A program made the translations under genes and the position numbers. A stretch of DNA of 64,000 bases from Microvirga sp. Mcv34 (GTDB taxonomy: Bacteria; Pseudomonadota; Alphaproteobacteria; Rhizobiales; Beijerinckiaceae): contig NZ_JALJRK010000009.1 of assembly GCF_024519725.1 (NCBI RefSeq), positions 1 to 64,000 of the forward strand, read 5' to 3'. The notes beneath the pieces are model-generated. The model was not told where the DNA came from and made no database searches. It worked only from the letters and a program-made list of their open reading frames with translations. Positions 9,375-42,399 of this stretch are shown piece after piece (within the stretch, counting starts at the first letter, position 1; each line of letters starts with the position of its first letter).

Positions 9375-10519
9375 CGCGCCTTGCCGCCCATCCGGAGGGC
9401 GCCTCCTTCATCACGGTTCCGGTTCCGCTCGGCGACAGGGCCTACGAAATCCTGGTCGGGCGCGGCCTGATCGAGACGGCCGGGGCGCGGATCGCGGCTC
9501 TTGGCGCCCGCGCGGCCGCCATCGTGACGGACGAGCACGTGGGGCCACTCTATGCCGGGGCTCTCGCGAGCGCCCTGGAGGCCCAGGGCCTGCGCGCCTC
9601 GGTGGTCACGCTGCCTCCCGGCGAGGCCACCAAGTCCTATGCCAGCCTGGAACGGGTCTGCGACGCGGTGCTGGCGGCCAGGATCGAGCGCGGGGACCTC
9701 GTGGTGGCGCTCGGCGGCGGCGTGATCGGGGACCTGGCGGGCTTCGCGGCCGCCGTGGTGCGCCGGGGCGTGCGCTTCGTCCAGGTGCCGACCACCCTGC
9801 TCTCCCAGGTCGATTCCTCCGTCGGCGGCAAGACCGGCATCAATTCCCGCCACGGCAAGAACCTCGTCGGCGCTTTCCACCAGCCGAGCCTGGTCCTGGC
9901 CGACACGGCCCTCCTCGACACCCTGCCGGTCCGCGAGATGCGCGCCGGATACGCCGAGGTGGCGAAATACGGGCTCATCGACGACGAGCGCTTCTTTGCG
10001 TGGTGCGAGGACAACTGGCGGGGCGTCTTCGCCGGCGGTCCCGAGCGTGACGAGGCCGTGGCGCAGAGCTGTCGGGCCAAGGCCGCCGTGGTGGTGCGTG
10101 ACGAGCACGAGAACGGCGACCGGGCCCTGCTCAATCTCGGCCATACCTTCGGCCATGCCCTCGAGCGGATCACAGCTTACGATTCCGCCCGCCTCGTCCA
10201 TGGCGAGGGCGTCGCCATCGGACTGTGCCTCGCCTTCCGCTTCTCCGCCGCGCTCGGCCTGTGCCCGCCGGCGGATGCCGAGCGCGTGGAGGCGCACCTG
10301 TCGGCCGCTGGACTTCCGACGCGCCTCGCCCATGTTCCCGGAGGCTGCGGCACGGTCGACGAGCTTCTCGACGCCATGGCCCAGGACAAGAAGGTGAAGG
10401 GCGGCGCCCTGACCTTCATCCTGGCCCGGGGCATCGGGCAGAGCTTCATCGCTCCCGGCATCGAGGCCGACAAGGTCCGCAGTTTCCTGGACAGCGAACT
10501 CGACCCGTCACGCTCATGA
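9371..10519 (+). CDS. aroB: 3-dehydroquinate synthase
   Basis: NAD- and metal-dependent cyclisation of DAHP to 3-dehydroquinate, second step of the shikimate pathway. The 382-residue protein has the substrate/NAD region GEATKSYASLERVCD, the glycine-rich GGGVIGDLAGFAAAVVRRG, the TTLLSQVDSSVGGKTGIN block and the metal ligands in GHTFGHALE. Length fits AroB. Start overlaps aroK by 4 bases, stop overlaps the CNNM gene by 4 bases. The pairing with shikimate kinase is the classical bacterial aroKB arrangement. Confidence 0.97.
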   Translation: MTRLAAHPEGASFITVPVPLGDRAYEILVGRGLIETAGARIAALGARAAAIVTDEHVGPLYAGALASALEAQGLRASVVTLPPGEATKSYASLERVCDAVLAARIERGDLVVALGGGVIGDLAGFAAAVVRRGVRFVQVPTTLLSQVDSSVGGKTGINSRHGKNLVGAFHQPSLVLADTALLDTLPVREMRAGYAEVAKYGLIDDERFFAWCEDNWRGVFAGGPERDEAVAQSCRAKAAVVVRDEHENGDRALLNLGHTFGHALERITAYDSARLVHGEGVAIGLCLAFRFSAALGLCPPADAERVEAHLSAAGLPTRLAHVPGGCGTVDELLDAMAQDKKVKGGALTFILARGIGQSFIAPGIEADKVRSFLDSELDPSRS

Positions 10520-28745: not shown

Positions 28746-29051
28746 TTACAGCATTTCCACCTTGATCGCACGCATCACGATGGTCTCCTGCTCGAACCGC
28801 CGTTCCAGGTCCGCGCGGTAGCGCTCCCACCAGGCATGGTCGAGTTCGCGGGCCATCACTTCGAACACGACGATATCGTCGTGGGAGGTATGACCGCCCT
28901 CCTTCCAGACGCCTTCAGCGGGCGCGCGCGTGAAGCTCGTGATCCCGCCGAAGCGCTCGGACAGCTCCTTGCGGACCCGCGCATAGACCGCCCCGTCGAG
29001 ACGGCGGCCCTTGTTGTCGGCGAGCGGCAGCAGAATCTGAACCAGATGCAT
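28746..29051 (-). CDS. Conserved-looking hypothetical protein, about 101 residues
   Basis: Compact soluble protein starting MHLVQILLPLADN, with AVYARVRKELSERFGGITSF and ending in an EQETIVMRAIKVEML strand. The pattern of alternating strands and helices looks like a small ferredoxin-like fold. I cannot attach a family name or function. The ATG at 29051 is favoured because AGGGG lies 6 bases upstream; the open frame continues to 29279 but that part has the composition of non-coding sequence. Confidence 0.65.
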   Translation of the reverse strand: MHLVQILLPLADNKGRRLDGAVYARVRKELSERFGGITSFTRAPAEGVWKEGGHTSHDDIVVFEVMARELDHAWWERYRADLERRFEQETIVMRAIKVEML

Positions 29052-29182
29052 CGGCATCCCCTGAATAACGCCATCGGATGGCGCAGGAAAATAGTTCAGG
29101 GGACGGAAAAGGCGAGACCTCCGGCCTCCGTCAGAGCATCGGATCGATCCGATACCTTTTCGAGGAACGCATCGTCGATGCG

Positions 29183-29539
29183 TTAGGCCTGCAGGGCCGC
29201 GAACAATTCGCGATCCGATTCGGGCCATTCCTCGGCGATCCGATAGCGGCCCGACGGCTTCGACACGCGCCATGGGCACTCCGTCGATGCGTGGAACGCC
29301 TCAGATGGCCGCAGGCGCCGGGCGCTGCCGTCAGCCTGGATTTCATCGATGACGACGAAGCCGAAGATCGTGAGACGCGTGGCCATGACCTTGGTGGCGC
29401 GATCGCCTGCCGCAATCGGCAACGAGCCTGCGGCATAGACCGCATCCATCAGGCTTCGTTGATCGCGGTGGGGATTCGCCGACGAGCGTGCGCCCGGAAA
29501 GCGTATGACATTCGTCGGCTGAGACGATCTCGATTCCAT
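29183..29539 (-). CDS. Hypothetical protein, 118 residues
   Basis: Soluble protein of unrecognised family. It begins with MESRSSQPTNVIRFPGARSS (a polar tail with the VIRFP segment common in rhizobial small proteins) and has a core with MATRLTIFGFVVIDEIQADG. AAGGG lies 8 bases upstream of the ATG. Its 3' end lies 131 bases from the start of the next gene downstream. Real but unassigned; moderate confidence. Confidence 0.5.
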   Translation of the reverse strand: MESRSSQPTNVIRFPGARSSANPHRDQRSLMDAVYAAGSLPIAAGDRATKVMATRLTIFGFVVIDEIQADGSARRLRPSEAFHASTECPWRVSKPSGRYRIAEEWPESDRELFAALQA

Positions 29540-29597
29540 GTAAGCAACCCTTGGTCCCGAATCGGAGCCAGAATCGCCGGAAGGAATTAAGAAGCGC

Positions 29598-30017
29598 CTA
29601 ATCGATGATATGCAGCGACACGTAGGCCGTGCCGTCGGAGGTCAGGCCGAGCGCCTGAGCGGGGCCTTTTGCGAGATCGATGATCCGCCGGTGGGCGAAG
29701 GGGCCGCGGTCGTTCACCCGGACGACGACCGAGCGGCCATTGTCTTCATTGACGACCCTGAGCTTCGTGCCGAACGGCAGGGAGCGGTGCGCGGCGGTCA
29801 TGTCGGAGGAATTGAAGCGCTCTCCGCTGGCGGTCTTACGGCCGTGAAATCCTGGGCCGTACCAGGAGGCGGTGCCGCGCTGAATGGCCGGTCCGGCGTC
29901 GATATCGGCTTGTGAGATGGATCCTGTGGTGAGCGGGTCGTTCGAGGCGGTTGTATTGCAGGCTGCTACGAGAAGAATAGGCACAATGACAGATGCCCGG
30001 GTGAGGATGTTCTTCAA
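29598..30017 (-). CDS. RlpA-like septal ring lipoprotein
   Basis: A 139-residue lipoprotein with a double-psi beta-barrel domain. The signal ends in the lipobox LLVAACN (Cys 20). The barrel carries GTASWYGPGFHGRKTASGE, the MTAAHRSLPFGT block and VVRVNDRGPFAHRRIIDLA, the RlpA signature with the catalytic Asp of NDRGP. Relatives are lytic transglycosylases acting on denuded peptidoglycan. No SPOR domain is present, so it is a short form. The start is a TTG at 30017 with GGGAG 7 bases upstream. Confidence 0.9.
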   Translation of the reverse strand: MKNILTRASVIVPILLVAACNTTASNDPLTTGSISQADIDAGPAIQRGTASWYGPGFHGRKTASGERFNSSDMTAAHRSLPFGTKLRVVNEDNGRSVVVRVNDRGPFAHRRIIDLAKGPAQALGLTSDGTAYVSLHIID

Positions 30018-30275
30018 GGACAGTCTCCCCTTCCGTTTCGGTTGGAAGTGAAACTGAGCCTTAAAAAGGCAAGAATAAGGCGCTGCGGATTTTTATACGT
30101 TCGCTCACTCTTCCGAGATGTGAAACTATACCGAGAAATAGCCTAGACAAATGCGACATCCCTCCTAGATAGCCTGAGTAAACGTTACGATATTCCAGGG
30201 CGCGATTTACCCCTCTCGCAATTGTGAATCATTGCCTCTGGTCTAAAACCGCAATCGGTCTAGTTCAGGTAGCCG

Positions 30276-31856
30276 ATGTTCCACGCCATTCAGGGCTCCC
30301 GGCTCATGCGCGAATCCGCCCGTTCATCTCAGGTCGCCGTCGTGGGGGCTGGCCCTGGAGGCCTGGCCTCCGCCATGCTGCTGGCGCGCGAGGGTATTCC
30401 TGTCACGGTTTTCGAAAGGGAGCCGGCCGTCGGCGGCCGAACCCGGACCATCCATGCGCCCGGCGGCTACAAGTTCGATATCGGCCCGACCTTCTTCCTG
30501 TATCCCCGCGTTCTGAAAGACATCTTCGAAGCCTGCGGCGAACGGCTGGAAGATCATGTCGAGCTCAAGCGTCTCGACCCGCAATATCACGTCGTCTTCG
30601 AGGGTGGCGGCTCCATTCGCGCCACGTACGATCTCGATCGCCTCGAACAGGAAATCGCCCGTCTGGCACCCGCCGACGCGCGCAACGTGCGCCGGTTTCT
30701 CGACGACAACCGCGACAAGCTCGAAGCCTTCCGGCCCGTGCTGGAACAGGCCTTTTCGAGTCCGGCGGATCTCTTCTCGCCGGCGATGCTGGCCGCCTTG
30801 CCGAAGCTGAGACCTTTCTCCAGCGTCGACAGCGATCTCAAGCGCTATTTCGCCGATCCGCGCGTGCGCCTCGCCTTTTCGTTCCAGACGAAATATCTCG
30901 GCATGTCGCCGTTCCAGTGCCCGAGCCTGTTCACCATTCTCTCGTTCCTCGAATACGAGCACGGCGTTTTCCATCCCATGGGCGGCTGCGGCGCGGTCTC
31001 GGAAGCCATGGCGAAGGTCGCACGCAAGATGGGCGTCGACATTCGCCTCAACACGCCGGTCGAGCGCGTCGTCTACGAGAACGACGAGGCCGTCGGGCTC
31101 GAGGCGGGCGGCGAGCGGTTCGCTGCGGGCTCGGTGGTGATCAACGGCGATTTCGGCCATGCCATGCGCCATCTGGTGCCGGAATCCATGCGTCCGCGCT
31201 GGACGGACAGGAAGCTCGCTCGCGCGAAGATCTCCTGCTCCACCTTCATGCTCTATCTCGGCATCGAAGGCGAAGTGGGCGATCTCGCCCATCACACGAT
31301 CCTGCTGTCGCGCGACTACGAACGCAACATTCACGAGATCACCAACGGCATCCTGCCCGAAGAACCATCGGTTTACGTGCAGCACGCCGGCGCGACCGAT
31401 GAATCGCTGGCCCCGCAGGGCCACACGAGCCTCTATGTGCTCGTGCCCGTGCCGAATCTGCGCTGCGGGATCGACTGGACGCGCGAGGCACCGCGCTATC
31501 GCAAGCTTGCGCTCGAACGCCTGAAGGTGCTCGGGCTGGGCGATATCGAGAGCCGCATCCGCTTCGAGCGCGTGGTGACGCCACGTGGCTGGGAAAACGA
31601 GTTCTCCGTGTTCGAGGGCGCCACCTTCAACCTCGCGCACAACCTGACGCAGATGCTCTACTTCCGCCCGCACAACCGCTTCGGCCGCAACGTCTATCTG
31701 GTCGGCGGCGGCACGCATCCCGGCAGCGGATTGCCGGTGATCTATGAAGGCGCGCGCATCACGACGCGGCTGCTGCTGGAGGATCGCGAGCGCCAGCGCG
31801 CGGGCGACCACGAAGCGAAGCCAGCCGTCGCGCCGCTCGGCGAAGCGGCTCTATAA
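30276..31856 (+). CDS. crtN: CrtN-like carotenoid desaturase (C30 type)
   Basis: FAD-dependent desaturase of 526 residues in the CrtI/CrtN family, first gene of the carotenoid operon. N-terminal FAD motif VVGAGPGGLASAML, then FEREPAVGGRTRT, FDIGPTFFLYP, SCSTFMLYLGIEGEV, RNIHEI and the C-terminal FAD-binding GGGTHPGSGLPVI. The spacing of these blocks resembles staphylococcal CrtN (dehydrosqualene desaturase) more than C40 CrtI, as far as I can judge from memory. Probable role: stepwise desaturation of squalene or dehydrosqualene to diaponeurosporene or diapolycopene. Start ATG 30276 has AGG 7 bases upstream; ATG 30306 is an alternative. The 258-base upstream region shared with rlpA must hold the operon promoter but I recognised no clear boxes. 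Confidence 0.85.
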   Translation: MFHAIQGSRLMRESARSSQVAVVGAGPGGLASAMLLAREGIPVTVFEREPAVGGRTRTIHAPGGYKFDIGPTFFLYPRVLKDIFEACGERLEDHVELKRLDPQYHVVFEGGGSIRATYDLDRLEQEIARLAPADARNVRRFLDDNRDKLEAFRPVLEQAFSSPADLFSPAMLAALPKLRPFSSVDSDLKRYFADPRVRLAFSFQTKYLGMSPFQCPSLFTILSFLEYEHGVFHPMGGCGAVSEAMAKVARKMGVDIRLNTPVERVVYENDEAVGLEAGGERFAAGSVVINGDFGHAMRHLVPESMRPRWTDRKLARAKISCSTFMLYLGIEGEVGDLAHHTILLSRDYERNIHEITNGILPEEPSVYVQHAGATDESLAPQGHTSLYVLVPVPNLRCGIDWTREAPRYRKLALERLKVLGLGDIESRIRFERVVTPRGWENEFSVFEGATFNLAHNLTQMLYFRPHNRFGRNVYLVGGGTHPGSGLPVIYEGARITTRLLLEDRERQRAGDHEAKPAVAPLGEAAL

Positions 31857-31866
31857 GGGGTGCCGG

Positions 31867-32271
31867 ATGAGACGCGTTGGACTGACCGCCTTTCTTCTTC
31901 TGTCCGTCTCGTCCGCCCACGCGGCGACGCTGACGATCCGCGCCCAAGGCGTTCAGCCGGACGGCAAGATGGTCTATGCCGGGGTCTGCGATACCAGCTT
32001 CGAGGAGGCCACCTGCCCCTACAAGGACCGCGGCCAGGCCACCGCGGGAACGGTGGAACTGCGTATCAGGAACGTGAAGCCCGGCACCTATGCCATCGCG
32101 GCCTTTCATGACGTGAACGGCAACGGTAAGCTCGACCGCAACTTCATCGGCCTGCCCAGCGAGCCCTACGGCTTCTCGAACGACGTGGGCCGTCGCGGCC
32201 CTCCGAATTTCGACGCCGCCCGCATCGTCGTCAGGGAGCCTGCGACGACGATCGTGATCCCGGTCCGATAG
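31867..32271 (+). CDS. DUF2141 secreted protein in the carotenoid operon
   Basis: A 134-residue protein with a signal peptide (FLLLSVSSAHAA, cleaved near residue 20) and a DUF2141 domain, recognisable by the GTYAIAAFHDVNGNGKLDRN block and the following PxEPYGFSND segment. DUF2141 proteins are predicted periplasmic beta-sandwich proteins and often sit in carotenoid or lipid clusters of diverse bacteria. An AAGGGG box 7 bases upstream fixes the start 10 bases after crtN. Possible role: carrier or scaffold for a pigment or lipid at the periplasmic face (inference only). Confidence 0.83.
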   Translation: MRRVGLTAFLLLSVSSAHAATLTIRAQGVQPDGKMVYAGVCDTSFEEATCPYKDRGQATAGTVELRIRNVKPGTYAIAAFHDVNGNGKLDRNFIGLPSEPYGFSNDVGRRGPPNFDAARIVVREPATTIVIPVR

Positions 32272-32279
32272 AGGTCCCC

Positions 32280-33374
32280 ATGCTGTGGCGCGCCTATGCA
32301 CTTCTGTCCCACGGGGGAGACCGCATAGGCCTCGGCTCCATCGGCCTGTCGTCCTGGCACGGCCCGGCCGCGCCCTCGCTCCAGCGGGCGGGCGACGTGC
32401 TGAAGGTGCTCGAAGAGGCCGACACCGCCATCTGGTCGGCAAGCGCCCTCTCGGCCTGCGCCGAGACGGGCCTTCTCGCCCATCTCGACAAGCCGGCGAC
32501 GATCGACACGTTGGCGCAAGCCATCTCCCTCTCGCCGGCGCTCGTCCGGACGCTGGTCGACGTGCTCGCAAGCCACAGGTTCGTGGTGTGGAACCAGGAC
32601 CGGGTCCAGGCAGCCCCTGCCCTCCTGCCCTTCACGACGCCCGAGGGCGTGGCGACCTTCCGCGCGTCCCTGCGGGCCCCTCTCCTGCAGGCCGAGAGCT
32701 TCCGGCGCAAGCTTGCCGACCGCACCCTGACCCTCGATGGCTGGACCCATACGAACGAGGCCATCATCGAGTCCCAGGGCACCCTGACCCGGCTCTGGAC
32801 CACCCGGGCCCTGCCGAAGCTGAAGTTCCTGCCGGGCCTCGTCCCGCGTCTCGAAAAGCCCGGCGCGGCCCTTCTCGACGTGGGCGCGGGGGCCGCAGGC
32901 CTTTCGATCGCGCTCTGCCGGCATTTTCCTCATCTGACAGCCGTGGCCCTTGAGCCTGCGCCCCGTCCGGCCGACATCGGGGAGCGCCACGTGCGGGAGG
33001 CCGGGCTCGAGGGCCGCATCGTCATGCGACGGCAACGGGCGGAAGAGCTGGACGACGAGCGGGCCTTTGACCTCGCCTTCCTGCCGCAGATGTTCCTGCC
33101 GGAGGCGATTATCCAGGACGCCATCGAGCGGATCTTCCGCTCGCTGCGGCCCGGAGGCTGGCTTCTTGTCGCCGTCCTGTCCCAGGAAGGCGGCGGGACG
33201 GTCTCGGCCGTCAACCGGCTGAAAAACCTGCTCTGGGGCGGCAACACGCGCGCCATGGACCACCTGAGGCCCCGCCTGGCTGCCGCCGGATTCAACCCGG
33301 TAATCCGCGCGCCGGGCCGGCACGCGCTGCGCATGATCTGCGCCCGCCGCCCAAACGTTCGTGATTTGACTTGA
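32280..33374 (+). CDS. CrtF-like SAM-dependent methyltransferase
   Basis: A 364-residue class I methyltransferase. An N-terminal winged-helix dimerisation domain (about 50-130, ASALSACAETGLLAHLDKPATI) precedes the Rossmann domain with motif I LLDVGAGAAGLSIAL (about 199-213) and an FDLAFLPQMFLPE segment. This two-domain layout is typical of CrtF-type and plant-like O-methyltransferases. In this operon it could methylate a carotenoid hydroxyl or the carboxylate formed by the CrtP-like enzyme (inference). It starts 8 bases after DUF2141. Downstream, 82 bases separate it from the CrtP gene; a weak promoter-like TTGAAC/TAGAAC pair (33371-33398) lies there. Confidence 0.8.
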   Translation: MLWRAYALLSHGGDRIGLGSIGLSSWHGPAAPSLQRAGDVLKVLEEADTAIWSASALSACAETGLLAHLDKPATIDTLAQAISLSPALVRTLVDVLASHRFVVWNQDRVQAAPALLPFTTPEGVATFRASLRAPLLQAESFRRKLADRTLTLDGWTHTNEAIIESQGTLTRLWTTRALPKLKFLPGLVPRLEKPGAALLDVGAGAAGLSIALCRHFPHLTAVALEPAPRPADIGERHVREAGLEGRIVMRRQRAEELDDERAFDLAFLPQMFLPEAIIQDAIERIFRSLRPGGWLLVAVLSQEGGGTVSAVNRLKNLLWGGNTRAMDHLRPRLAAAGFNPVIRAPGRHALRMICARRPNVRDLT

Positions 33375-33456
33375 ACTGCCCCATGCGCTTCCTAGAACCA
33401 TCACGATTGGGACATGGGCAGATAACGGATAGACTCGTGCCTTTCGGGAGGAATGC

Positions 33457-34992
33457 GTGAACGCTCAAAGAACTTCGGTTGCGGTCATCGGCGGAGGATT
33501 GGGCGGATTGGCGGCGGCCTGCGTCGCGGCGGCCCGCGAGCACAAGGTCACCCTCTACGACAAGAACGCCTGGATCGGCGGCAAGGCGGCGGTTCTGCAT
33601 GAGGACGGCTTCCGTTTCGACATGGGTCCGACGATCCTGACCGTGCCGCGGGTCCTGGAGCGCATCTTCGCGGAGGCCGGCCGAAACCTCTCCGACTATC
33701 TCGATCTCGTGCGGCTCGATCCGCAATGGCGCTGCTTCTTCGACGACGGCACCCGGATCGACCTGCAGGAGAACATCGACGCCATGGCCGAGGCCATGGA
33801 TCGCTTCGCGCCCGGAAAGAACGCCGGCGAGGGATACAAGCGCTTCCAGGAAATCTCAGCGCATCTCCACGACATCTCGAACCGGTTCTTCTTCTGGAAG
33901 CCGGTGGAGGATCTCTTCGACACCATCAACATTCGCGCCAACATGAATCCCGCAACCCTGCGGGATGTTTTGTCTCTGCGCATGGGCTCGTCCGTCGCCG
34001 GCACCATCCGGTCCAAGGTGAAGGACGAGCGCCTGGCGCAGATGCTCGATCACTTCACGCAATATGTCGGCTCGTCGCCCTATGGCTCGCCCGCCGTGCT
34101 CTGCGCCATCGCCCACATGCAGGCGGCGGACGGGGTGTGGTATCCCATGGGCGGCACCCGCGCGGTCGCGGAGGCCCTGGCGAAGCTGGCGGGCGAACTC
34201 GGCGCCACGTTCCAGACCGACAGCGACGTGGCTTCGCTCAGGATCGAGAACGGAGCGGTCACGGGCATCGTCCTCGCGAGCGGTGAGGTCGTTCCCTACG
34301 ACAACGTCATCTCCAACATGGATTCGATCCGCACGTATCGCGAACTCGTCGGCGGCGAGGTCGGGGAACATTACGCACGCAAAGACTTCGAGCCCGCCTG
34401 CTCGGGCGTGGTGCTCTATCTCGGCCTGAACAAGCGCTACGACCACATCCTCCATCATGACTTTGTGTTCTCGCGCGATCCGGAAGAAGAGTTCGACTTC
34501 ATCTACCGGCGCGGCGAACCTGCACCGGATCCCACCTGCTATCTCGCAGCGCCGTCCGCGACGGACCCGAGCGTTGCGCCGGAAGGCGGCGAGGCGCTCT
34601 ACGTGCTTGTCCATACGCCTTATCTTCGTCCGCACCACGACTGGTCGCAGATGTTCCCCGCCTATCGGCAGGTGATCATCGACAAGCTGAAACGCACGGC
34701 TGGCATGAGCGATATCGAGGAGCGCATCGTGGTCGAACGCCACCTGACGCCGCAGGACATCCACGACCGCTACAAGGTGCTCAACGGCGCCATCTACGGT
34801 CTTGCGAGCCACGGCAAGTTCATGGGCGCGTTCAAGCCGGGCAACCGCAGCCGACAGGTGCGCGGCCTCTATCTCGCGGGCGGCGCGGCTCATCCGGGTC
34901 CGGGCATGCCGATGGTCATGATGTCGGGCTGGATCGCCGCCGACGCCCTCGATGCGGATGGCAAGGTCGAGAATCTACGGAACGTGTCTTGA
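33457..34992 (+). CDS. crtP: CrtP-like carotenoid terminal oxygenase
   Basis: FAD-dependent amine-oxidase-fold protein of 511 residues. Motifs VIGGGLGGLAAA, WIGGKAAV, FDMGPTILTVPRVLE, LDPQWRCFFDDGT, HFTQYVGSSPYGSPAVL, GAIYGLAS and AHPGPGMPMVMMSG follow the order and wording of 4,4'-diaponeurosporene oxygenase (CrtP), which oxidises the terminal methyl group of C30 carotenoids to aldehyde or acid. This makes it the partner of the CrtN-like enzyme rather than a second plain desaturase. Translation starts at GTG 33457 with GGAGG 5 bases upstream. The stop overlaps the TTG start of the acyltransferase, the first of five consecutive 4-base overlaps. Confidence 0.83.
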   Translation: MNAQRTSVAVIGGGLGGLAAACVAAAREHKVTLYDKNAWIGGKAAVLHEDGFRFDMGPTILTVPRVLERIFAEAGRNLSDYLDLVRLDPQWRCFFDDGTRIDLQENIDAMAEAMDRFAPGKNAGEGYKRFQEISAHLHDISNRFFFWKPVEDLFDTINIRANMNPATLRDVLSLRMGSSVAGTIRSKVKDERLAQMLDHFTQYVGSSPYGSPAVLCAIAHMQAADGVWYPMGGTRAVAEALAKLAGELGATFQTDSDVASLRIENGAVTGIVLASGEVVPYDNVISNMDSIRTYRELVGGEVGEHYARKDFEPACSGVVLYLGLNKRYDHILHHDFVFSRDPEEEFDFIYRRGEPAPDPTCYLAAPSATDPSVAPEGGEALYVLVHTPYLRPHHDWSQMFPAYRQVIIDKLKRTAGMSDIEERIVVERHLTPQDIHDRYKVLNGAIYGLASHGKFMGAFKPGNRSRQVRGLYLAGGAAHPGPGMPMVMMSGWIAADALDADGKVENLRNVS

Positions 34993-35828
34993 GGCAGGAA
35001 ACGGGCAAGGCAGGAACGGATCACTCTTCATCCGGTCGCGCGGGAGGCTCTCCCGTCGCGCGTCGCTCCGTCCTGCTCCATCGCTTCATGGTCTCGACCT
35101 TCCGGCGCTATTTCACGCGCCACATGAATGCCCTGCGGATCGCCTCCTGGGGCATCCCGGCCATTCCCCAGCAAGGCCCGGTCATCGTCTATTCCAATCA
35201 CCCGGCCTGGTGGGACGCGGCCATCTATGTCCTGACGGCGGACCGCTTCTTTCCGTCCTATGAGAGCTACGCGCCCATCGATGCCGCGATGCTGAAGCAA
35301 TACGGCATCTTCGGCCGCATCGGCGCTTTCGGAGTCGATCTCGAAAGCCCGCGCGGCGCAGTGGATTTCCTCAGGACCGGCGCGGAGATCCTCTCCGCCC
35401 CCGACCGCGCCCTCTGGATCACCGCGCAGGGACGCTTCGGCGACGTGCGCGAGAGACCGCTCGGCCTCAAGCCCGGCGTGGCGCACATCGTCGAACGCGC
35501 GCCCGATTGCACAATCCTGCCGCTCGCCATCGAGTATGGCTTCTGGCTGGAACGCGGCGCGGAAGCCTTCCTAGCCTTCGGCCAGCCGATGCGCGGACAG
35601 GACCTTTTGAACCTCTCGCGCGCCGACCGTCTCGAGCGGCTCGAAAGCGCGCTGACCACGACGCTCGATCACTTGAGCGCCGACGTGCAGAGCCGCGACC
35701 CGGCCCGCTTCCGGGCGGTTCTCGAAGGCCGCGCCGGCATCGGCGGGATCTACGACGGGTGGCGTCGAATGGCGGCGGCCCTGCGCGGGCGCGCCTTCGA
35801 CCCATCTCACGAGGGACGGCCGTCATGA
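34989..35828 (+). CDS. PlsC-like lysophospholipid/carotenoid acyltransferase
   Basis: A 279-residue acyltransferase of the PlsC/LPLAT superfamily. The catalytic HX4D motif is NHPAWWDA (about residues 69-76), preceded by PVIVYS; the third block ITAQGRFGDVRERP replaces the usual EGTRS-like sequence. In this operon, placed between the CrtP-like oxygenase and the CrtQ-like glycosyltransferase, it probably acylates the sugar of a glycosyl carotenoid, the job done by the unrelated CrtO in staphylococci (inference). The start is a TTG overlapping the crtP stop (TTGA); the stop overlaps the next gene (ATGA). No clear transmembrane helix; probably membrane-associated. Confidence 0.82.
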   Translation: MRQETGKAGTDHSSSGRAGGSPVARRSVLLHRFMVSTFRRYFTRHMNALRIASWGIPAIPQQGPVIVYSNHPAWWDAAIYVLTADRFFPSYESYAPIDAAMLKQYGIFGRIGAFGVDLESPRGAVDFLRTGAEILSAPDRALWITAQGRFGDVRERPLGLKPGVAHIVERAPDCTILPLAIEYGFWLERGAEAFLAFGQPMRGQDLLNLSRADRLERLESALTTTLDHLSADVQSRDPARFRAVLEGRAGIGGIYDGWRRMAAALRGRAFDPSHEGRPS

Positions 35829-36937
35829 CGGTGCTTGCTCTCGTCGTGCTTGCACTGGCCGCTATCCCGTTCGTGCTCGCGCTCATGAACCTGGGCGTCC
35901 TGCGCGCGACGCCGCGCCAGGCGCCGCAGGGCGACGTGCTCGTCTCCATCCTCATCCCGGCGCGCAACGAGGCGGCGAATATCGGCCCCGCCCTCGATGC
36001 GGCGCTCGGCAGCATGGGCGTTCCCGTCGAGGTCCTGGTCATGGACGACGGGTCGACGGATGCCACCGCCGACATCGTCCGCGCCTACGCGGCCCGCGAC
36101 GTCCGCGTGCGCCTGCTCACCGCCCCGCCCCTCGACGACGGCTGGACCGGCAAGGTCCATGCCTGCCACCATCTCTCCGAGGCCGCGCGGGGCACGCATT
36201 TCCTGTTCGTCGATGCGGATGTGCGCCTGGGCCCTCAAGCGGCAGCCGCGCTGGCAGGCCATGCGCAGGCGGCCGATGCGAGCCTCGTCAGCGCCGTGCC
36301 GCGTCAGGTCATGATCACGCTCGGCGAAATGCTGACGGTGCCGACGATCAACCTGCTCCTGCTCGGCTACCTCCCCATGGGCTTCATGCGCCTCTCCCGC
36401 GATCCAGGATTAGGCGCGGCCTGCGGCCAGCTCATGCTCGTCGAGCGCGAGGCCTATCGGGCGAGCGGCGGGCACGCGGCGATCCGCACGCGCATCCACG
36501 ACGGAATCCAGCTGGCGCGGCTCTTCCGCCGCAAGGGCCTCATGACGGATCTCGTGCCGGGCGAGCGCCTCGCCACCTGCCGGATGTACACGCGTTTCGA
36601 CGAAGCCTGGGCCGGCTTTGCCAAGAATGCTCACGAGGGCATGGCGACACCCGTGGCGCTGCCGGTCTGGACCGTGCTCCTGCTCGGTGGCCATGTGATG
36701 CCGTTCCTGCTCCTGCCGTTCGCGCCGGGCTTCCTGCTCGCCTGCGCGGCTCTTCTCCCCCTCGGCGCACGCACGCTCGTGACCGTCGCGACGCGGGAGA
36801 ATCCCTGGTCGATCCCGCTCCATCCTTTCACCGTCCTGGTCGGCCTCGTGATCCAATGGAGCGTGCTCCTGCGGATCGGGCAGGCGCGCCGCGCGGGATG
36901 GAAAGGCAGGCTTTATCCTCTGGAGGAGAAGCCATGA
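35825..36937 (+). CDS. crtQ: CrtQ-like family 2 glycosyltransferase
   Basis: A 370-residue GT2 (GT-A fold) membrane glycosyltransferase. One N-terminal helix (about 2-22), then SILIPARNEAANIGPAL, MDDGSTDAT, WTGKVHACHHL, the metal-binding FVDADVRLG (DxD) and two or three C-terminal helices, ending WKGRLYPLEEKP. The GKxHAC block, DAD motif and WKGR-x-Y ending match 4,4'-diaponeurosporenoate glycosyltransferase (CrtQ) as I remember it. Predicted reaction: transfer of glucose from UDP-glucose to the carboxyl end of the C30 acid. Start and stop both overlap neighbours by 4 bases. Confidence 0.83.
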   Translation: MTVLALVVLALAAIPFVLALMNLGVLRATPRQAPQGDVLVSILIPARNEAANIGPALDAALGSMGVPVEVLVMDDGSTDATADIVRAYAARDVRVRLLTAPPLDDGWTGKVHACHHLSEAARGTHFLFVDADVRLGPQAAAALAGHAQAADASLVSAVPRQVMITLGEMLTVPTINLLLLGYLPMGFMRLSRDPGLGAACGQLMLVEREAYRASGGHAAIRTRIHDGIQLARLFRRKGLMTDLVPGERLATCRMYTRFDEAWAGFAKNAHEGMATPVALPVWTVLLLGGHVMPFLLLPFAPGFLLACAALLPLGARTLVTVATRENPWSIPLHPFTVLVGLVIQWSVLLRIGQARRAGWKGRLYPLEEKP

Positions 36938-38592
36938 GCACGGACGTCTCCCGAGCAACGAAGCGACCGCGCGACGAGAACTTCCCGGTCGCATCTCTCG
37001 TGCTCTCGCGTGAGCACCGGGACGCGGTCCTGGCCTTCTATGCCTTCGCGCGCATGGCCGACGACATCGCCGACGCACCCGATCTCGGGGCTGCGGAGAA
37101 ACTAGCGCGTCTCGATGCACTCGAACAGGCACTCGTGTCCGGCGACCCGTCCGTCCCGCAGGCCGCGCGTCTCCATGCCGTCGACCGGGAGCACAGGGTC
37201 GGCCTGACGCAAGCCCGCGAGCTGCTGCGCGCCTTCCGTCAGGACGTGGTCAAGGCCCGCTACAACGATTGGGCGGAGCTGATCGATTATTGCCGCTTCT
37301 CCGCCAACCCAGTCGGCCGCTTCCTGCTGATGCTGCACGGCGAGCGCAGTTCGGCCCACGGGCCGGCGGACGCCCTTTGCACGGCTTTGCAGATCCTCAA
37401 CCACCTGCAGGATTGCGGCCGCGACCGTGAACGGATGGGCCGCATCTACATCCCGATCCGGTGGATGCTGGCGGCCGGTTCCGAGACGGCGTTCTTCGAT
37501 CCGTCGCGCACGGCGCTCCGACGCGATGTCTTAGACGCCATGCTCGACCGGGTCGATGCACTGATCGATCAGGCGCAATCCCTGCCCGAGCACCTGCAGA
37601 ATGCGCGTCTGCGGGCGCAGAGCATCGCGACCGTCGCCCTGGCCCGGCGTTTGAGCCGGCGCCTGCGGCAGGCCGACCCGGTGCTGGAGCGCGTGCAGGT
37701 GAGCAAGACCGATGCGGGCATCGCGTTCCTGCGCGGCCTTCGCGGGACGCTTGGACGGCCCGCCTCCGGCGACCACCGCGTGACGGCGGCGGCGGTGCGG
37801 CGCTCGGGCTCGTCCTTCCGCCTCGGCATGCAGAGTCTCTCACCCGAGCGCCGCCGCGCCATTCATGCGGTCTATGCCTTCTGCCGTGCGGTGGACGACG
37901 TCGCCGACGGAGCGGCGCCCGCTGCCGAGAAGCGGACGTTCCTGCGGGAGTGGCGGCGTGAGCTCGACCGGCTGCACCGTGCGCCGGGAACGCCGATCGG
38001 GCGTGAACTCGCCCGCGCCTCGACCCTCTTCAAGCTGCCCCTGGAGGAATGCCACGCGCTTCTCGACGGCATGGAAACGGACAGCGCCGACCGGGTGCGT
38101 CTTGCCGACGATTATGAGCTCGGGCTCTACGGCCGCCGTGTCGCGGGCTCCGTCGGGGCACTGTCGATCCGCATCTTCGGCGTTCCGTCCGCCCATGATT
38201 TCGCCCTTCATCTCGGGCGCACCCTGCAGCTCGTGAACATCCTGCGCGATGTCGACGAGGATGCGGCCCGCGAGCGTGTCTACGTGCCCCTCTCGCGGCT
38301 GGCGCAACTCGGCTTGCGCGATGCTCCCGCGTCCGCTCTCGTGGCCGATCCGCGCTTCGCCCGCGTGTGTGAAGCCCTTGCCGACGAGGCTCGCGCCGGA
38401 TTTGCGGCGGCGGACGAGACCCTCCTGCGTCTCGACCGTCGGGCCCTGAAACCGGCGATCCTGATGATGGAGAACTACCGTCGCGTGCTCGACCGGCTGC
38501 AAGCGCGCGGCTGGGGCCTGCGCCAGGGCCGGCTGCGCTTGAGCACCGCCGACAGATTGCATCTCATCACCCGCGCCATGAGGCCCGCATGA
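36934..38592 (+). CDS. Fused HpnC-HpnD squalene-pathway synthase
   Basis: A 552-residue protein with two tandem trans-isoprenyl diphosphate synthase domains. Residues ~10-275 resemble HpnC (hydroxysqualene synthase): FPVASLVLSREHRDAVLAF, ARMADDIADAPD and NHLQDCGRDRERMGRIYIP. Residues ~290-545 resemble HpnD (presqualene diphosphate synthase): SGSSFRLGMQSLSPERRRA, YAFCRAVDDVADG and NILRDVDEDAARERVYVPL. HpnD joins two farnesyl diphosphates to presqualene diphosphate, HpnC converts that to hydroxysqualene, and HpnE (next gene) reduces it to squalene. Usually these are separate genes; here one polypeptide could channel the intermediate. Each domain retains both Asp-rich motifs. GGAGGAGAA precedes the ATG, which overlaps the glycosyltransferase stop. 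Confidence 0.87.
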   Translation: MSTDVSRATKRPRDENFPVASLVLSREHRDAVLAFYAFARMADDIADAPDLGAAEKLARLDALEQALVSGDPSVPQAARLHAVDREHRVGLTQARELLRAFRQDVVKARYNDWAELIDYCRFSANPVGRFLLMLHGERSSAHGPADALCTALQILNHLQDCGRDRERMGRIYIPIRWMLAAGSETAFFDPSRTALRRDVLDAMLDRVDALIDQAQSLPEHLQNARLRAQSIATVALARRLSRRLRQADPVLERVQVSKTDAGIAFLRGLRGTLGRPASGDHRVTAAAVRRSGSSFRLGMQSLSPERRRAIHAVYAFCRAVDDVADGAAPAAEKRTFLREWRRELDRLHRAPGTPIGRELARASTLFKLPLEECHALLDGMETDSADRVRLADDYELGLYGRRVAGSVGALSIRIFGVPSAHDFALHLGRTLQLVNILRDVDEDAARERVYVPLSRLAQLGLRDAPASALVADPRFARVCEALADEARAGFAAADETLLRLDRRALKPAILMMENYRRVLDRLQARGWGLRQGRLRLSTADRLHLITRAMRPA

Positions 38593-39875
38593 CCGCACGG
38601 CGCACCCATATCGTCGGAGCGGGAATCGCGGGCCTGAGCGCCGCGCTCGCCGTCACGGCTGAGGGTGGCGAGGCCATCGTCTATGAGGGCGCGCCGCAGG
38701 TGGGCGGACGCTGCCGCACAATCCAGCCCACCGACGGCTTCGTCCATGACAACGGCACCCATGTGCTGTTCTCCGCCAATGGACGCGCGCTCGAACTCCT
38801 CAAGGCGATCGGCGCCCGCGACCGCTGGATCGAGCCGGAGCCTAAAGGACTCCCGCTCTACGACGGGCGCACGGGAGAGCTGCGGCGGGTGGGCCTCTCG
38901 CCCTGGTCATGGCTCCTACCCTCGCGCCGGCCTCATGGCCTAACCCTGCCCGATCTGGCGCGGATCCTGCGCCTCGTCTTCACGGCGAAGGACTGCCCGG
39001 TCGCGTCGATCATCGGGGATCGACCGATCATGAGCAGCCTGATCGAGCCCCTGACGGTGGCGGTGCTCAACACGCCGCCCGCGCAGGCTTCCTCGCAGCG
39101 CCTCGCCTGCGCCCTGCGACGCCTCATCCGGCCCGGTGCCGGGCGTCTCCTGGTGGCGCGCAACGGCTTGAGCGAAGACCTGATCGAGCCCGCCGTCGCC
39201 ACTATCGAGAGAAGAGGCGCAGCCGTTCACACCGGCCAGCGCCTGCGCAGGCTCCTGACCAGCCAGGAGCGCGTCATCGGGCTGGCCCTGACGGACCGCA
39301 CCGTGATGCTCGGCCCCGACGACCGCGTGATTCTCGCGCTCCCGCCTTACGAGGTGGAGCGGCTGCTCCCGACGCTTCCCGTGCCGACCACTTTCGAGCC
39401 CATCGTCAACGTTCATTATCGCATGAAGGGCCTGGCGAGCCCACGCTTCATCGGCTTCACCGGCACGCTCGCGCAATGGGCGCTGGTTCGCCCCTCGCAT
39501 GTGAGCGTCACGGTCTCGGCCGCCGACGCGGTGGTGGACCTCAATGCAGCCGATCTGGCGGCAAGGATCTGGCGCGACGTCGCGCCGGCCCTGCACAGCC
39601 TCGGGCTCGATGCGGACAGCAATCGCCAGCCCGAGAGCCGGGTGCTGAAGGAGAAGCGCGCGACCATCCGCCAGGCCGCCGAGGAGCTCCCGCAGCCTCC
39701 CCTGCGCCCCCTGTCCAATCTCGCCCTGGCGGGAGATTGGCTCGGCTCCCTTCCCGCCACCATCGAGAGCGCCGTCATGGCCGGCGAGCACGCAGCCTCC
39801 CTGCTGCGGCACACCCGCTGCACCCGCCCATCGGTTCCGCGCGACCGCCCCTTGAAGACGGAGGATGCGGCATGA
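38589..39875 (+). CDS. hpnE: Hydroxysqualene dehydroxylase HpnE
   Basis: FAD-dependent amine-oxidase-like enzyme of 428 residues that reduces hydroxysqualene to squalene. FAD-binding motif HIVGAGIAGLSAALAV at the N-terminus, then PQVGGRCRTI, VHDNGTHVLFSAN and a C-terminal NLALAGDWLGSLPATIESAVMAG. The HpnE-typical HDNGTH segment and position directly after HpnC-HpnD support the call over a second phytoene desaturase. Starts by ATGA overlap with HpnCD and ends by ATGA overlap with ispH. Confidence 0.87.
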   Translation: MTARRTHIVGAGIAGLSAALAVTAEGGEAIVYEGAPQVGGRCRTIQPTDGFVHDNGTHVLFSANGRALELLKAIGARDRWIEPEPKGLPLYDGRTGELRRVGLSPWSWLLPSRRPHGLTLPDLARILRLVFTAKDCPVASIIGDRPIMSSLIEPLTVAVLNTPPAQASSQRLACALRRLIRPGAGRLLVARNGLSEDLIEPAVATIERRGAAVHTGQRLRRLLTSQERVIGLALTDRTVMLGPDDRVILALPPYEVERLLPTLPVPTTFEPIVNVHYRMKGLASPRFIGFTGTLAQWALVRPSHVSVTVSAADAVVDLNAADLAARIWRDVAPALHSLGLDADSNRQPESRVLKEKRATIRQAAEELPQPPLRPLSNLALAGDWLGSLPATIESAVMAGEHAASLLRHTRCTRPSVPRDRPLKTEDAA

Positions 39876-40882
39876 TCCAGGACCATCCCCCGCTGACCGT
39901 TCTGCTCGCGGCGCCGCGCAGCTTCTGTGCCGGTGTCGAGCGCGCCATCAGGGCCGTCGAGGATGCCCTCGACCGGACGGGCAGACCCGTCTATGTGCGC
40001 CACGAGATCGTGCATAACGGCCGCGTGGTGGAAGACCTGAAGCGCAAGGGCGCGATCTTCGTCGAGGATCTGGCCGAGATCCCGGACGGGGCCGTGGCCA
40101 TCTTCAGCGCCCATGGGGTTTCGCGCGCGGTGGAACGGGAGGCGGCCGGCCGTAGCCTGTCCGTGCTCGATGCCACCTGCCCGCTCGTGCGCCGCGTCCA
40201 TCTCGAAGGGCAGCGCCATTCCAAGGCGGGCCGCGAGGTCATCGTGATCGGTCATCGCGGCCATGTGGAGATCGAGGGAACCACCGGGCAGATCGACGGC
40301 ACCGTGCATGTGATCGAGAGCGTCGCTGAAGCGCTGACCATTCCGGTCCTGAACCCGGAGCGCATCGCCTACATCACCCAGACGACGCTCTCCGTCGACG
40401 ACACCCGCGAGATCATCGCGGCCCTGAAAAAGCGTTTTCCCGCCATTCAGGGCCCCGACGTCAAGACGATCTGCTACGCGACGCAGAACCGGCAGATGGC
40501 GGTGCGCGTGATCGCCCGGCGCGCGGAACGGATCATCGTCTGCGGCGCGCGCAATTCATCGAACACGAACCGCCTGTGCGAGGTGGCCGTCAACGAGGGG
40601 CGACAGGCGCTCCTCATGCAGGACCCGAAAGACCTGACGCTCTCCTTCATCGACGGGGCCGCCGTGATCGGCCTGACGGCAGGCGCCTCCGCGCCGGAAG
40701 ACCTGGTGCAGGAGGCCTTGGCCCAGCTCGCGCAATGGCGGCGGCTCACGGTGGAGGAGGTGCGCGTGACCCATGAGGACGCGGAGTTCGCGCCCGTCGA
40801 TGTGTCGCGGCTTGAGGGCAAAGCATCGATCCCGAAAGTGGACACCTCTTTCGGGATCGATTCGATGCTCATTTCTCAATGA
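39872..40882 (+). CDS. ispH: 4-hydroxy-3-methylbut-2-enyl diphosphate reductase
   Basis: Iron-sulfur enzyme of 336 residues, last step of the MEP pathway, giving IPP and DMAPP. The three cluster cysteines are in FCAGVERAI (about residue 19), DATCPLVRRVH and ICYATQNRQ, and the substrate-binding NSSNTNRLCE is present. As last gene of the operon it feeds precursor to the squalene/C30 pathway. Whether it is the only ispH of the genome cannot be seen. The last ~20 codons lie in a palindromic repeat element (40823-40868), so the C-terminal tail is encoded by that element. The ATG overlaps the hpnE stop. Confidence 0.93.
   Translation: MIQDHPPLTVLLAAPRSFCAGVERAIRAVEDALDRTGRPVYVRHEIVHNGRVVEDLKRKGAIFVEDLAEIPDGAVAIFSAHGVSRAVEREAAGRSLSVLDATCPLVRRVHLEGQRHSKAGREVIVIGHRGHVEIEGTTGQIDGTVHVIESVAEALTIPVLNPERIAYITQTTLSVDDTREIIAALKKRFPAIQGPDVKTICYATQNRQMAVRVIARRAERIIVCGARNSSNTNRLCEVAVNEGRQALLMQDPKDLTLSFIDGAAVIGLTAGASAPEDLVQEALAQLAQWRRLTVEEVRVTHEDAEFAPVDVSRLEGKASIPKVDTSFGIDSMLISQ
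40823..40868. repeat. Dispersed palindromic repeat, copy C, inside the 3' end of ispH
   Basis: A perfect 14-bp stem (40825-40838 with 40848-40861) with a 9-base loop, flanked by GCATCGA and TCGATGC type ends. It encodes part of the C-terminus of IspH (about ASIPKVDTSFGIDSML). Same family as the copies at 8698-8731 and 44271-44320. Confidence 0.75.
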
Positions 40883-40947
40883 GCGCATTGTTTTAGGGCG
40901 GAAAACCGGATCCGGTTCACCGTCGAAAACGCGATCAAACAAAGAAG

Positions 40948-40979
40948 AGAGCTGATTCCACGTTCGTGGAAACAGCTCT
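40948..40979 (-). terminator. Hairpin between ispH and the convergent MATE gene
   Basis: Two stacked 7-bp arms (40948-40954 with 40973-40979; 40956-40962 with 40965-40971) form a long hairpin at the very end of the MATE gene. On the minus strand it is followed by a T-rich stretch (CTTCTTTGTTTG), weak but compatible with termination. A second small palindrome AACCGGATCCGGTT lies at 40904-40917. Confidence 0.5.
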
Positions 40980-42399
40980 AGCTCGCGAACGCCTCCTGAA
41001 CGTCCCGCGGCGTCGCCGTGACCAGCCCCAGCCTGTCCCGGCGCAGCCAGCGCCACAGCATCAGGCAGGCCACCACGGCGAGCCCGCTGGCCAGCCCGAT
41101 CCAGATGCCCACGCCCCGCAGCGACGTGCCGAAGGCCAGGGTGGCGCCGAGCGGCAGGCCTACGCCCCAATAGCCGAGCGCCGCGTAGATCATCGGCACG
41201 CGGGTATCCTGCAGCCCGCGCAGCATTCCGGCCCCGACCGCCTGCGCGCCGTCCACCAGCTGGAAGATGGCCGCCACCACCAGGAAGGTGCGTGCCAGCT
41301 CGATGACGAGCGCGTTCTTGGGATCGTTCACGTCCAGGAAGACGCCGAGCAGCAGGTGCGGGGCGAACAGCATGAGCGATGCCGTGACAGCCATGAAGCC
41401 GGTGCCGAGCGCGAAGGACGTCCATCCGGCCCGGGTGACGCCGGCCGCGTCCTGAGCGCCGTAGGCCCGGCCCACGCGCACCGTCACGGCCTGTCCGATG
41501 CCGAGCGGGACGGAGAAGCAGAAGGAGGCGATCTGCAGAGCGATCGCATGGGCGGCCAGTTCGCTCTCGCCGATCCGTCCCATCAGCATGGCGGCCGCAT
41601 TGAAGATCGTCACCTCGAACATCAGCGTCAGGCCGATGGGCAGACCGATCTGCCAGAGGGTGCGGTAGCGCGGCCAGTCGGGCCGCCAGAAGCGCCCGAA
41701 GACGTGATAGCGCTTGAGGCGCGGATGGAGGGCGATCACCACGGCGAGCGCCACGAACATGAAGGCGCTCGAGATCACCGTGCCGAGCCCCGCCCCGACG
41801 AGCCCAAGGGTCGGCAGGCCGAGGGCGCCGAACATCAGCGCATAAGCCGCGCCGAAATTGACCGGAATGGCAAGCAGGCCGATGAACAGGGCCCAGCCGG
41901 GGCGCTCCAGGGCGGCCAGGAACGAGCGCAGCACCAGGAAGAGCAGGAACGGCAGAAGGCTCCATTGCAGGGCGCGGATATACTGGCCCGCATTGTGAGC
42001 GAGCGTGGGCGCCTGCCCGATGGCGAGCAGGATCGTCTCCCCGTTCCAGGCCACGATCCAGATCGGGACCGCGACGGTGACCGAGGCCCAGAAGCCCTGG
42101 CGTACCGTGCGGCGCACCTCGCGGACGGAATGGCGCTTGCGGCCGAGCTCCTCGGCGATCATCGGCGAGGTCGCGTTGACGAGGCCGATCCCGAAGATCA
42201 GGAAGGCGAAGTAGAGGTTGGTGCCGAGCGCGCCCGCCGCCAGAGCGTCCGATCCCATCCAGCCCATCAGAATGACGTCGGACGTGATCAGGGCGTTCTG
42301 CGCAATGGTGGCAAGAACCAGGGGCCAGCCGAGGGCCAGGGTCGCACGCAGCTCCGTCATCCAGGCAGCGCGCTCGAGGGTCGATTCTCTCGCGATCAT
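40978..42399 (-). CDS. MATE family efflux transporter
   Basis: Inner-membrane multidrug/toxin antiporter of about 473 residues with twelve predicted helices in two pseudo-repeats, e.g. [29 protein letters not shown] at the start and the homologous [27 protein letters not shown] in the middle, the NorM-like pattern. Probably driven by H+ or Na+. Substrates unknown. The start is not fixed: ATG 42399 and ATG 42360 are both possible and neither has a strong ribosome site; a GTG at 42438 gives 486 residues. Convergent with the carotenoid operon and divergent from the amidoligase pair. Confidence 0.9.

Follow-up and report, generated by a model that had tools for sequence, protein, structure and literature searches.

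A Microvirga operon that probably encodes a squalene-route pathway to a glycosylated, acylated C30 carotenoid

What pigment is made by an operon that places carotenoid-type desaturases side by side with enzymes of squalene synthesis, and from which precursor? The question is raised by nine genes, CrtN through IspH, at positions 30276-40882 of a 64,000-nucleotide stretch of Microvirga sp. Mcv34 DNA (contig NZ_JALJRK010000009.1, positions 1 to 64,000; hereafter the window). All nine lie on the + strand with every frame open. Intergenic gaps of 10, 8 and 82 bases, in that order, occur ahead of CrtP, and the last six genes, CrtP through IspH, overlap by 4 bases at each of five junctions, so that coordinates and open frames confirm the layout given in a first-pass annotation of the sequence. 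Profile searches matched all nine genes to their families, HpnE alone staying under its own cut-off (Table 1). We read the operon as the squalene-route C30 carotenoid pathway of Microvirga, with a product glycosylated and acylated as in Methylobacterium, and assign this reading a probability of about 0.82, a figure that covers the core pathway alone and not the roles of the methyltransferase and the DUF2141 protein. The pigment would very probably be pink, of 30 carbons and derived from squalene.

Table 1 Features of the operon region in the window and the evidence for their assignment.
Feature	Position	Strand	Evidence
CrtN-type C30 carotenoid desaturase (predicted)	30276..31856	+	ATG 30276, in-frame alternative 30306; TIGR02734 crtI_fam 518 bits (cut-off 238.1)
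DUF2141 protein	31867..32271	+	PF09912 91.9 bits; signal peptide by eye
Class I S-adenosylmethionine (SAM)-dependent methyltransferase	32280..33374	+	Pfam methyltransferase families; tentatively proposed as carotenoid carboxylate O-methyltransferase
CrtP-type C30 carotenoid oxidase (predicted)	33457..34992	+	GTG start; TIGR02734 406.9 bits (cut-off 238.1)
PlsC-type acyltransferase	34989..35828	+	TTG start; PF01553 27.2 bits (cut-off 23); H-x4-D motif
GT2 glycosyltransferase	35825..36937	+	PF00535 68.7 bits; DxD motif
HpnC-HpnD fusion, two prenyl-condensing enzymes in one protein	36934..38592	+	TIGR03464 HpnC 353.4 bits (cut-off 250.45), TIGR03465 HpnD 346.9 bits (cut-off 278.6); DDxxD in each half
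HpnE, hydroxysqualene dehydroxylase	38589..39875	+	TIGR03467 249.1 bits; position kept in relatives
IspH	39872..40882	+	PF02401 and TIGR00216 over cut-off
Terminator-like hairpin, IspH end	40866..40885	+	Pattern scan, at chance level: 5 found vs 4.9 expected in region

Gene content, synteny, orthology and linkage are direct results of this analysis, and the reactions of HpnC/D/E, CrtN, CrtP, the glycosyltransferase and the acyltransferase we infer from characterised relatives. The C30 acyl-glucoside of Methylobacterium extorquens is built from HpnC/D/E-derived squalene by CrtN, CrtP, a glycosyltransferase and an acyltransferase (PMC10448405). In its strain AM1, CrtN or CrtP mutants are colourless, deletion of the glycosyltransferase led to a compound that matches 4,4'-diapolycopene-4,4'-dioic acid in mass, and deletion of the acyltransferase to one that matches the glucosyl ester of that acid (PMC10448405). 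In Azospirillum brasilense, deletion of hpnCDE and deletion of crtNPOQ each abolish the pigment, the latter with accumulation of squalene (PMC13274349). The loci of Methylorubrum rhodinum (L075) and M. populi (L118) stand in here for M. extorquens, two of the primer segments of Mo et al. (PMC10448405) being absent from all loci of this analysis. Window CrtN and CrtP are 70% and 80% identical to the proteins of these loci, gene order is kept, and the acyltransferase gene is syntenic with its Methylobacterium counterpart. The squalene-route reading is supported because this orthology and synteny tie the operon to a cassette in which loss of the glycosyltransferase or of the acyltransferase left the intermediate predicted for it (PMC10448405). 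The first-pass proposal of a glycosylated and acylated C30 carotenoid made from squalene without CrtM is thereby upheld by orthology with Methylobacterium and Azospirillum genes. Since both the route and the glycosyltransferase and acyltransferase steps have been published for relatives (PMC10448405, PMC13274349), the core of the pathway is established biology seen in a new host.

The same gene set recurs widely. Among 80 named loci, the best of at least 525 relatives, 66 hold CrtN, CrtP, acyltransferase and glycosyltransferase together, and window CrtN is 53-96% identical to the clustered homologue in 69. Those 66 loci further carry DUF2141 (48), an ABC-2 permease (32), HpnC (22), IspH (18) and the methyltransferase (13), absence of DUF2141 and of the methyltransferase being scored by tblastn searches in which the window protein was the query (E <= 1e-6) and which divergent copies may escape. 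The CrtN-CrtP-acyltransferase-glycosyltransferase order is kept in a second set of 18 loci, drawn from other members of the bacterial family (some the same records as the named loci), one of which ends with its contig after CrtP; DUF2141 is present at 14 of the 18. Within the genus, 48 genomes were sampled, 34 with CrtP and 14 without. One genome counted among the 34, G175, has a short CrtP match with an internal stop codon (C2 112093-112935); the methyltransferase is missing there too, as is an aldehyde dehydrogenase of the type found at locus L111 (see below), a possible case of pathway decay. Window CrtP shares 97% identity with its Microvirga calopogonii counterpart (L054). Compared with three other Microvirga loci, the ratio of nonsynonymous to synonymous substitution rates (dN/dS) is 0.04-0.06 for CrtP, 0.10-0.12 for DUF2141, 0.145-0.173 for the acyltransferase and 0.16-0.19 for the methyltransferase. 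These values indicate purifying selection on all four genes, and since the operon order is also found again in other species, it is not a product of chance.

CrtN and CrtP were placed in a tree of 36 proteins comprising 13 CrtN, 13 CrtP and, taken from genomes of the same bacterial family, 10 further members of the CrtI protein family; Staphylococcus CrtN and CrtP were not included. CrtN and CrtP form one group (support 1.0) separate from the other CrtI-family proteins (0.959), within which CrtN alone is supported at 1.0 and CrtP alone at 0.75. The ten outgroup proteins pass the crtI_fam cut-off, and none of them reaches a curated CrtI- or CrtD-specific one. By relationship, CrtN and CrtP are predicted C30 enzymes, and the first-pass question of whether they belong with CrtI/CrtD or with CrtN/CrtP is answered, against these ten proteins, in favour of the first-pass proposal, CrtN and CrtP forming a group of their own.

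Several observations weigh against our reading, some touching its core and others the roles proposed for the two additional proteins. HpnE stays below the TIGR03467 cut-off (249.1 vs 283.05 bits), the next family scoring 51.4. The operon holds no aldehyde dehydrogenase, and a zeaxanthin record has been published for Microvirga (PMC11356035). The solved methyltransferases closest in sequence to the window enzyme are DsyB (E 7e-19) and then SgvM, and 7 of the 34 CrtP-bearing genus genomes are without the methyltransferase. For DUF2141, no match was found in 18 of the 66 clusters, the Microvirga arabica group included, and the search for a telling structural relative gave none, with no Foldseek match at E <= 0.001.

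HpnC and HpnD are fused in all 22 named loci that carry both next to carotenoid genes; these belong to Microvirga, Salinarimonas, a Salinarimonadaceae bin, Roseococcus, Siccirubricoccus and Roseicella, and the fusion provides a compact squalene-making part. HpnC/D/E are classical hopanoid genes, Microvirga massiliensis makes hopanoids (PMC12583986), and squalene-hopene cyclase (SHC) exceeds its cut-off in 5 of the 48 genus genomes, two of which are among the 34 with CrtP. The three proteins might thus supply a hopanoid precursor as mere neighbours of the carotenoid genes. The chance of this is very slight: the other 32 CrtP-bearing genomes are without SHC above cut-off (G175 and G188 among these show weak partial matches), the HpnC/D/E genes overlap by 4 bases with carotenoid genes, and the window genome, 99.99% complete, gave no match to SHC (PF13243) in a search that found it in 2 of 14 control genomes. 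SQS_PSY (PF00494) detects three proteins in this genome, namely HpnC, HpnD and one on contig C111, with no CrtM model among the matches listed. The C111 protein, which we take to be NDUFAF6-like, falls under the HpnC, HpnD and CrtB cut-offs and has a neighbour that looks by eye like secF. As the genome has no SHC match and its sole other SQS_PSY protein is below these cut-offs, squalene of the window strain probably serves the pigment. Of the two IspH matches in the genome, the second is unlinked (contig C260 13983-14819), and the copy in the operon may serve as a paralogue that raises flux.

Zeaxanthin absorbs maximally at about 450 nm. The Microvirga record concerns Microvirga sesbaniae, whose pigment, absorbing maximally at 503 nm, was reported as zeaxanthin on the strength of high-performance liquid chromatography-mass spectrometry, along with crtB and crtI annotations (PMC11356035). 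Taken at face value, it would make the pink pigment of Microvirga a C40 xanthophyll such as zeaxanthin and leave the operon a minor part. We regard this as highly unlikely, since the 503 nm maximum does not suit zeaxanthin, no SQS_PSY protein of the window genome reaches the CrtB phytoene synthase cut-off, and the operon is present in Microvirga tunisiensis (L062), the closest of the species that the paper names. PF05834 matches occur in 48/48 genus genomes, and among those listed the only full-length one, in G162, belongs to a genome without CrtP, none of the others extending past position 146 of 380. With CrtP absent from G162, this full-length lycopene cyclase match (C152 66378-67490, L140) gives the impression that a C40 pathway took the place of the C30 one. 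We suspect that the M. sesbaniae pigment is a C30 compound; if so, the Microvirga "zeaxanthin" record needs correction, and it deserves re-examination.

The decoration of the C30 backbone can be compared with two published models. The first-pass annotation described a staphyloxanthin-like acyl glycoside, for which the better model is the diapolycopenedioate acyl-glucoside of Methylobacterium, the acyltransferase being of the PF01553 family and Mo et al. reporting that they found no CrtO homologue in M. extorquens (PMC10448405). For the glycosyltransferase, the nearest NCBIfam models are HpnB and CruG, each under its cut-off.

How the carboxylates would be completed is a point on which the first-pass claim of a whole chain from precursor to product proved too strong, given the missing aldehyde dehydrogenase, though some related clusters carry one. 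In Methylobacterium, Mo et al. could not trace this enzyme, and removal of two candidate genes had no effect (PMC10448405). An aldehyde dehydrogenase gene lies in or near the cluster in 13 of the 80 named loci, two of which are truncated at the end of a contig, and also at L050 and L051. Two types can be told apart, one in Roseococcus, Siccirubricoccus, Roseicella, Roseomonas and Microvirga massiliensis and one in Elstera and Azospirillum (L111, L121, L122, L124, L132, L133, L050, L051; L117, L123, L126, L127, L129), and these are candidate enzymes for the gap in the M. extorquens pathway. In the genus, a homologue of the L111 type (E <= 1e-60) is found in 33/34 genomes with CrtP vs 2/14 without (Fisher p 1.6e-8, kinship uncorrected). 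Across 149 genomes of the family, with at most 11 candidates scored per genome, no such link emerged (5/19 with CrtP at 71% identity or more vs 21/130 without; p 0.33), Methylobacterium genomes being among the 14 CrtP-bearing ones without a homologue. The nearest homologue in the window genome, on C269, is 47% identical and has transporter and other dehydrogenase genes as neighbours by eye. It falls outside the clade of cluster-linked enzymes (support 0.997); that clade is not purely carotenoid-linked, since its members include the long-branched Azospirillum type as well as L157, whose genome gave no CrtP match. With its position outside this clade and the failure of the family-wide association, the C269 protein is only a weak candidate for the missing enzyme.

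Transport genes accompany many of the clusters: an ABC-2 ATPase and permease are encoded either in the interval from DUF2141 to CrtP or past the glycosyltransferase gene (L066-L071, other Methylobacterium loci, L114, L115, and L186 17028-17963), which suggests pigment export. In genus genome G167 (L186), the operon is without a DUF2141 match, an aldehyde dehydrogenase gene diverges from CrtN, and an ABC-2 permease lies beyond IspH. The window strain has neither an aldehyde dehydrogenase nor an ABC-2 permease at the locus, and a search of its genome for a close counterpart of the Methylobacterium exporter gave a best match of 27%.

Beyond the core pathway, the operon adds a methyltransferase beside CrtP. 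The first-pass label "CrtF-like" is loose, DsyB being nearest and BchU, deposited as CrtF-related, matching only at E 0.0017. DsyB methylates sulfur. The predicted structure combines a class I SAM fold and a helical N-terminal region (predicted local distance difference test, pLDDT, 82.2), and Foldseek returns a mixed set of methyltransferases, with E down to 8.3e-18 and template modelling scores of about 0.5-0.67. In CrtF and caffeate-type O-methyltransferases, a catalytic histidine acts as the general base. At this position the Microvirga enzyme has Gln270 and no histidine; Gln270 is invariant in 14/14 methyltransferases and aligns by eye with the histidine of SgvM, in an alignment holding no CrtF. 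A glutamine in place of the histidine would fit a carboxylate substrate, because a carboxylate needs no general base.

The distribution of the methyltransferase gene links it closely to CrtP. Homologues of at least 57% identity occur in 27 of the 48 genus genomes and adjoin CrtP in 27/27; they are present in 27/34 genomes with CrtP vs 0/14 without (Fisher p 2.4e-7, kinship uncorrected). A 28th match, in G150, has 31% identity and lies on a contig other than that of CrtP. All 13 named loci with the gene are Microvirga-titled, and 3 of the 16 loci so titled are without it (L064, L111, L119). M. calopogonii, M. subterranea and M. tunisiensis are among the species that bear the gene, M. massiliensis and M. 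lenta among those that do not. The AM1 product has one free carboxyl (PMC10448405). That the Microvirga enzyme caps the free carboxylate of the pigment as a methyl ester is a tentative proposal, which we place just short of an even chance. For strain PA1, Mo et al. invoked an unknown methyltransferase acting on the same dioic acid (PMC10448405), and for a Planococcus methyl ester, esterification by an acyltransferase homologue was the subject of speculation (PMC8502411). The open-licence literature searched yielded no gene for C30 carotenoid methyl esters. Alternatively, with the core pathway standing, the enzyme could methylate a sugar hydroxyl, act as a DsyB-type C- or S-methyltransferase or act on no pigment at all, the free acid being kept as in M. 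extorquens. The DsyB relationship, the mixed set of fold relatives and the seven CrtP-bearing genomes without the gene favour this, and the strict adjacency of close homologues to CrtP, with none in the CrtP-lacking genomes, argues against it; as it shares the core pathway, its odds lie inside those of the core, and we consider it a serious possibility of somewhat less than even probability. The linked methyltransferase and the cluster-linked aldehyde dehydrogenases make the open points of Mo et al. directly testable.

The DUF2141 gene is the sole copy in the window genome. An alignment of 33 members displays two invariant cysteines and a D-x-NGNGxLD loop, and the structural model is a beta-sandwich (pLDDT 88.6). 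Its best VIA match (Z 8.3, root-mean-square deviation 2.9 over 82 residues) is in the range of models without relatives, profile searches of the PDB gave no relative at E <= 1, and carbohydrate-binding modules recur among the fold matches, from which we draw no inference. The gene stays with the cluster, with varying place and strand: it follows CrtN in Methylobacterium and Microvirga and the glycosyltransferase in Azospirillum, and in L048 and L050 it is encoded on the strand opposite CrtN. Since 18 of the 66 clusters gave no match, DUF2141 is helpful and not required. In the Microvirga lenta locus (L119) the methyltransferase has no match and the DUF2141 match (9363-9763) is split across two frames, making this locus a possible natural control for both. 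A DUF2141 gene stands, unexplained, beside crtG in Sphingomonadales (PMC5989583) and Qipengyuania (PMC9241875), so that the present operon provides a second carotenoid context for the family. That the predicted secreted protein binds the pigment or places it in the envelope is conceivable, if rather doubtful.

In the proposed pathway, IspH would add precursor flux, the HpnC-HpnD fusion and HpnE would convert two farnesyl diphosphates to squalene, CrtN would desaturate it and CrtP would oxidise the terminal methyl groups. Completion of the carboxylates, whether by CrtP or by an aldehyde dehydrogenase from another locus, would give 4,4'-diapolycopene-4,4'-dioic acid, to one carboxyl of which the GT2 enzyme would attach glucose, the sugar then being acylated by the PlsC-type enzyme. 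The likeliest step for the methyltransferase would be to cap the other carboxyl as a methyl ester, and that for the secreted DUF2141 protein to bind or place the pigment in the envelope. Taken to its full extent, this scheme would yield a new C30 pigment, an acyl-glucosyl diapolycopenedioate methyl ester (C55H80O10 with an 18:1 chain, [M+Na]+ 923.564), formed by a dedicated carotenoid-carboxylate O-methyltransferase and handed to a secreted DUF2141 beta-sandwich carrier, DUF2141 being a general envelope carotenoid-binding family. We judge this full version unlikely; if true, the enzyme would be the first dedicated carotenoid-carboxylate O-methyltransferase in the open-licence literature searched. 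The parts that merit specialist attention are the Microvirga-specific methyltransferase, the HpnC-HpnD fusion and the DUF2141 link.

Around the operon, promoter and terminator scans gave no signal above chance, and Rfam had no matches in 29000-42000. An RlpA-family gene (29598-30017, minus strand) diverges from the operon and a MATE efflux transporter gene (TIGR00797; 40978-42438, minus strand) faces its end; members of these families occur in 15 and 13 Microvirga loci, respectively.

Compared with M. extorquens AM1, the operon shares HpnC/D/E squalene, CrtN, CrtP, the glycosyltransferase and the acyltransferase (PMC10448405), and it is syntenic with M. populi and M. rhodinum, for which the CrtP-acyltransferase-glycosyltransferase cassette was likewise reported (PMC10448405). 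AM1 carries separate hpnC, hpnD and hpnE beside shc, whereas HpnC and HpnD are fused in the window, and the portion of the AM1 paper drawn on here names no methyltransferase gene, in contrast to the window operon, which has one (PMC10448405). The window operon also lacks the ABC-2 transporter that separates DUF2141 from CrtP in Methylobacterium loci. With A. brasilense Sp7 the operon shares the squalene-mediated C30 pathway, supported there by deletions (PMC13274349), and the A. brasilense loci L126, L127 and L129 hold homologues of window CrtN, CrtP, acyltransferase, glycosyltransferase and DUF2141; unlike the window, they give no methyltransferase match. In A. brasilense hpnCDE occupies a separate locus and aldH accompanies crtNPOQ (PMC13274349), whereas the window operon includes its hpn genes and no aldehyde dehydrogenase. 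Staphyloxanthin synthesis in Staphylococcus (crtOPQMN, aldH) follows the same logic of C30 desaturation, end oxidation, glucosylation and acylation, but starts from dehydrosqualene made by CrtM, uses CrtO as acyltransferase and ends in a mono-acid ester (PMC10448405, PMC8502411).

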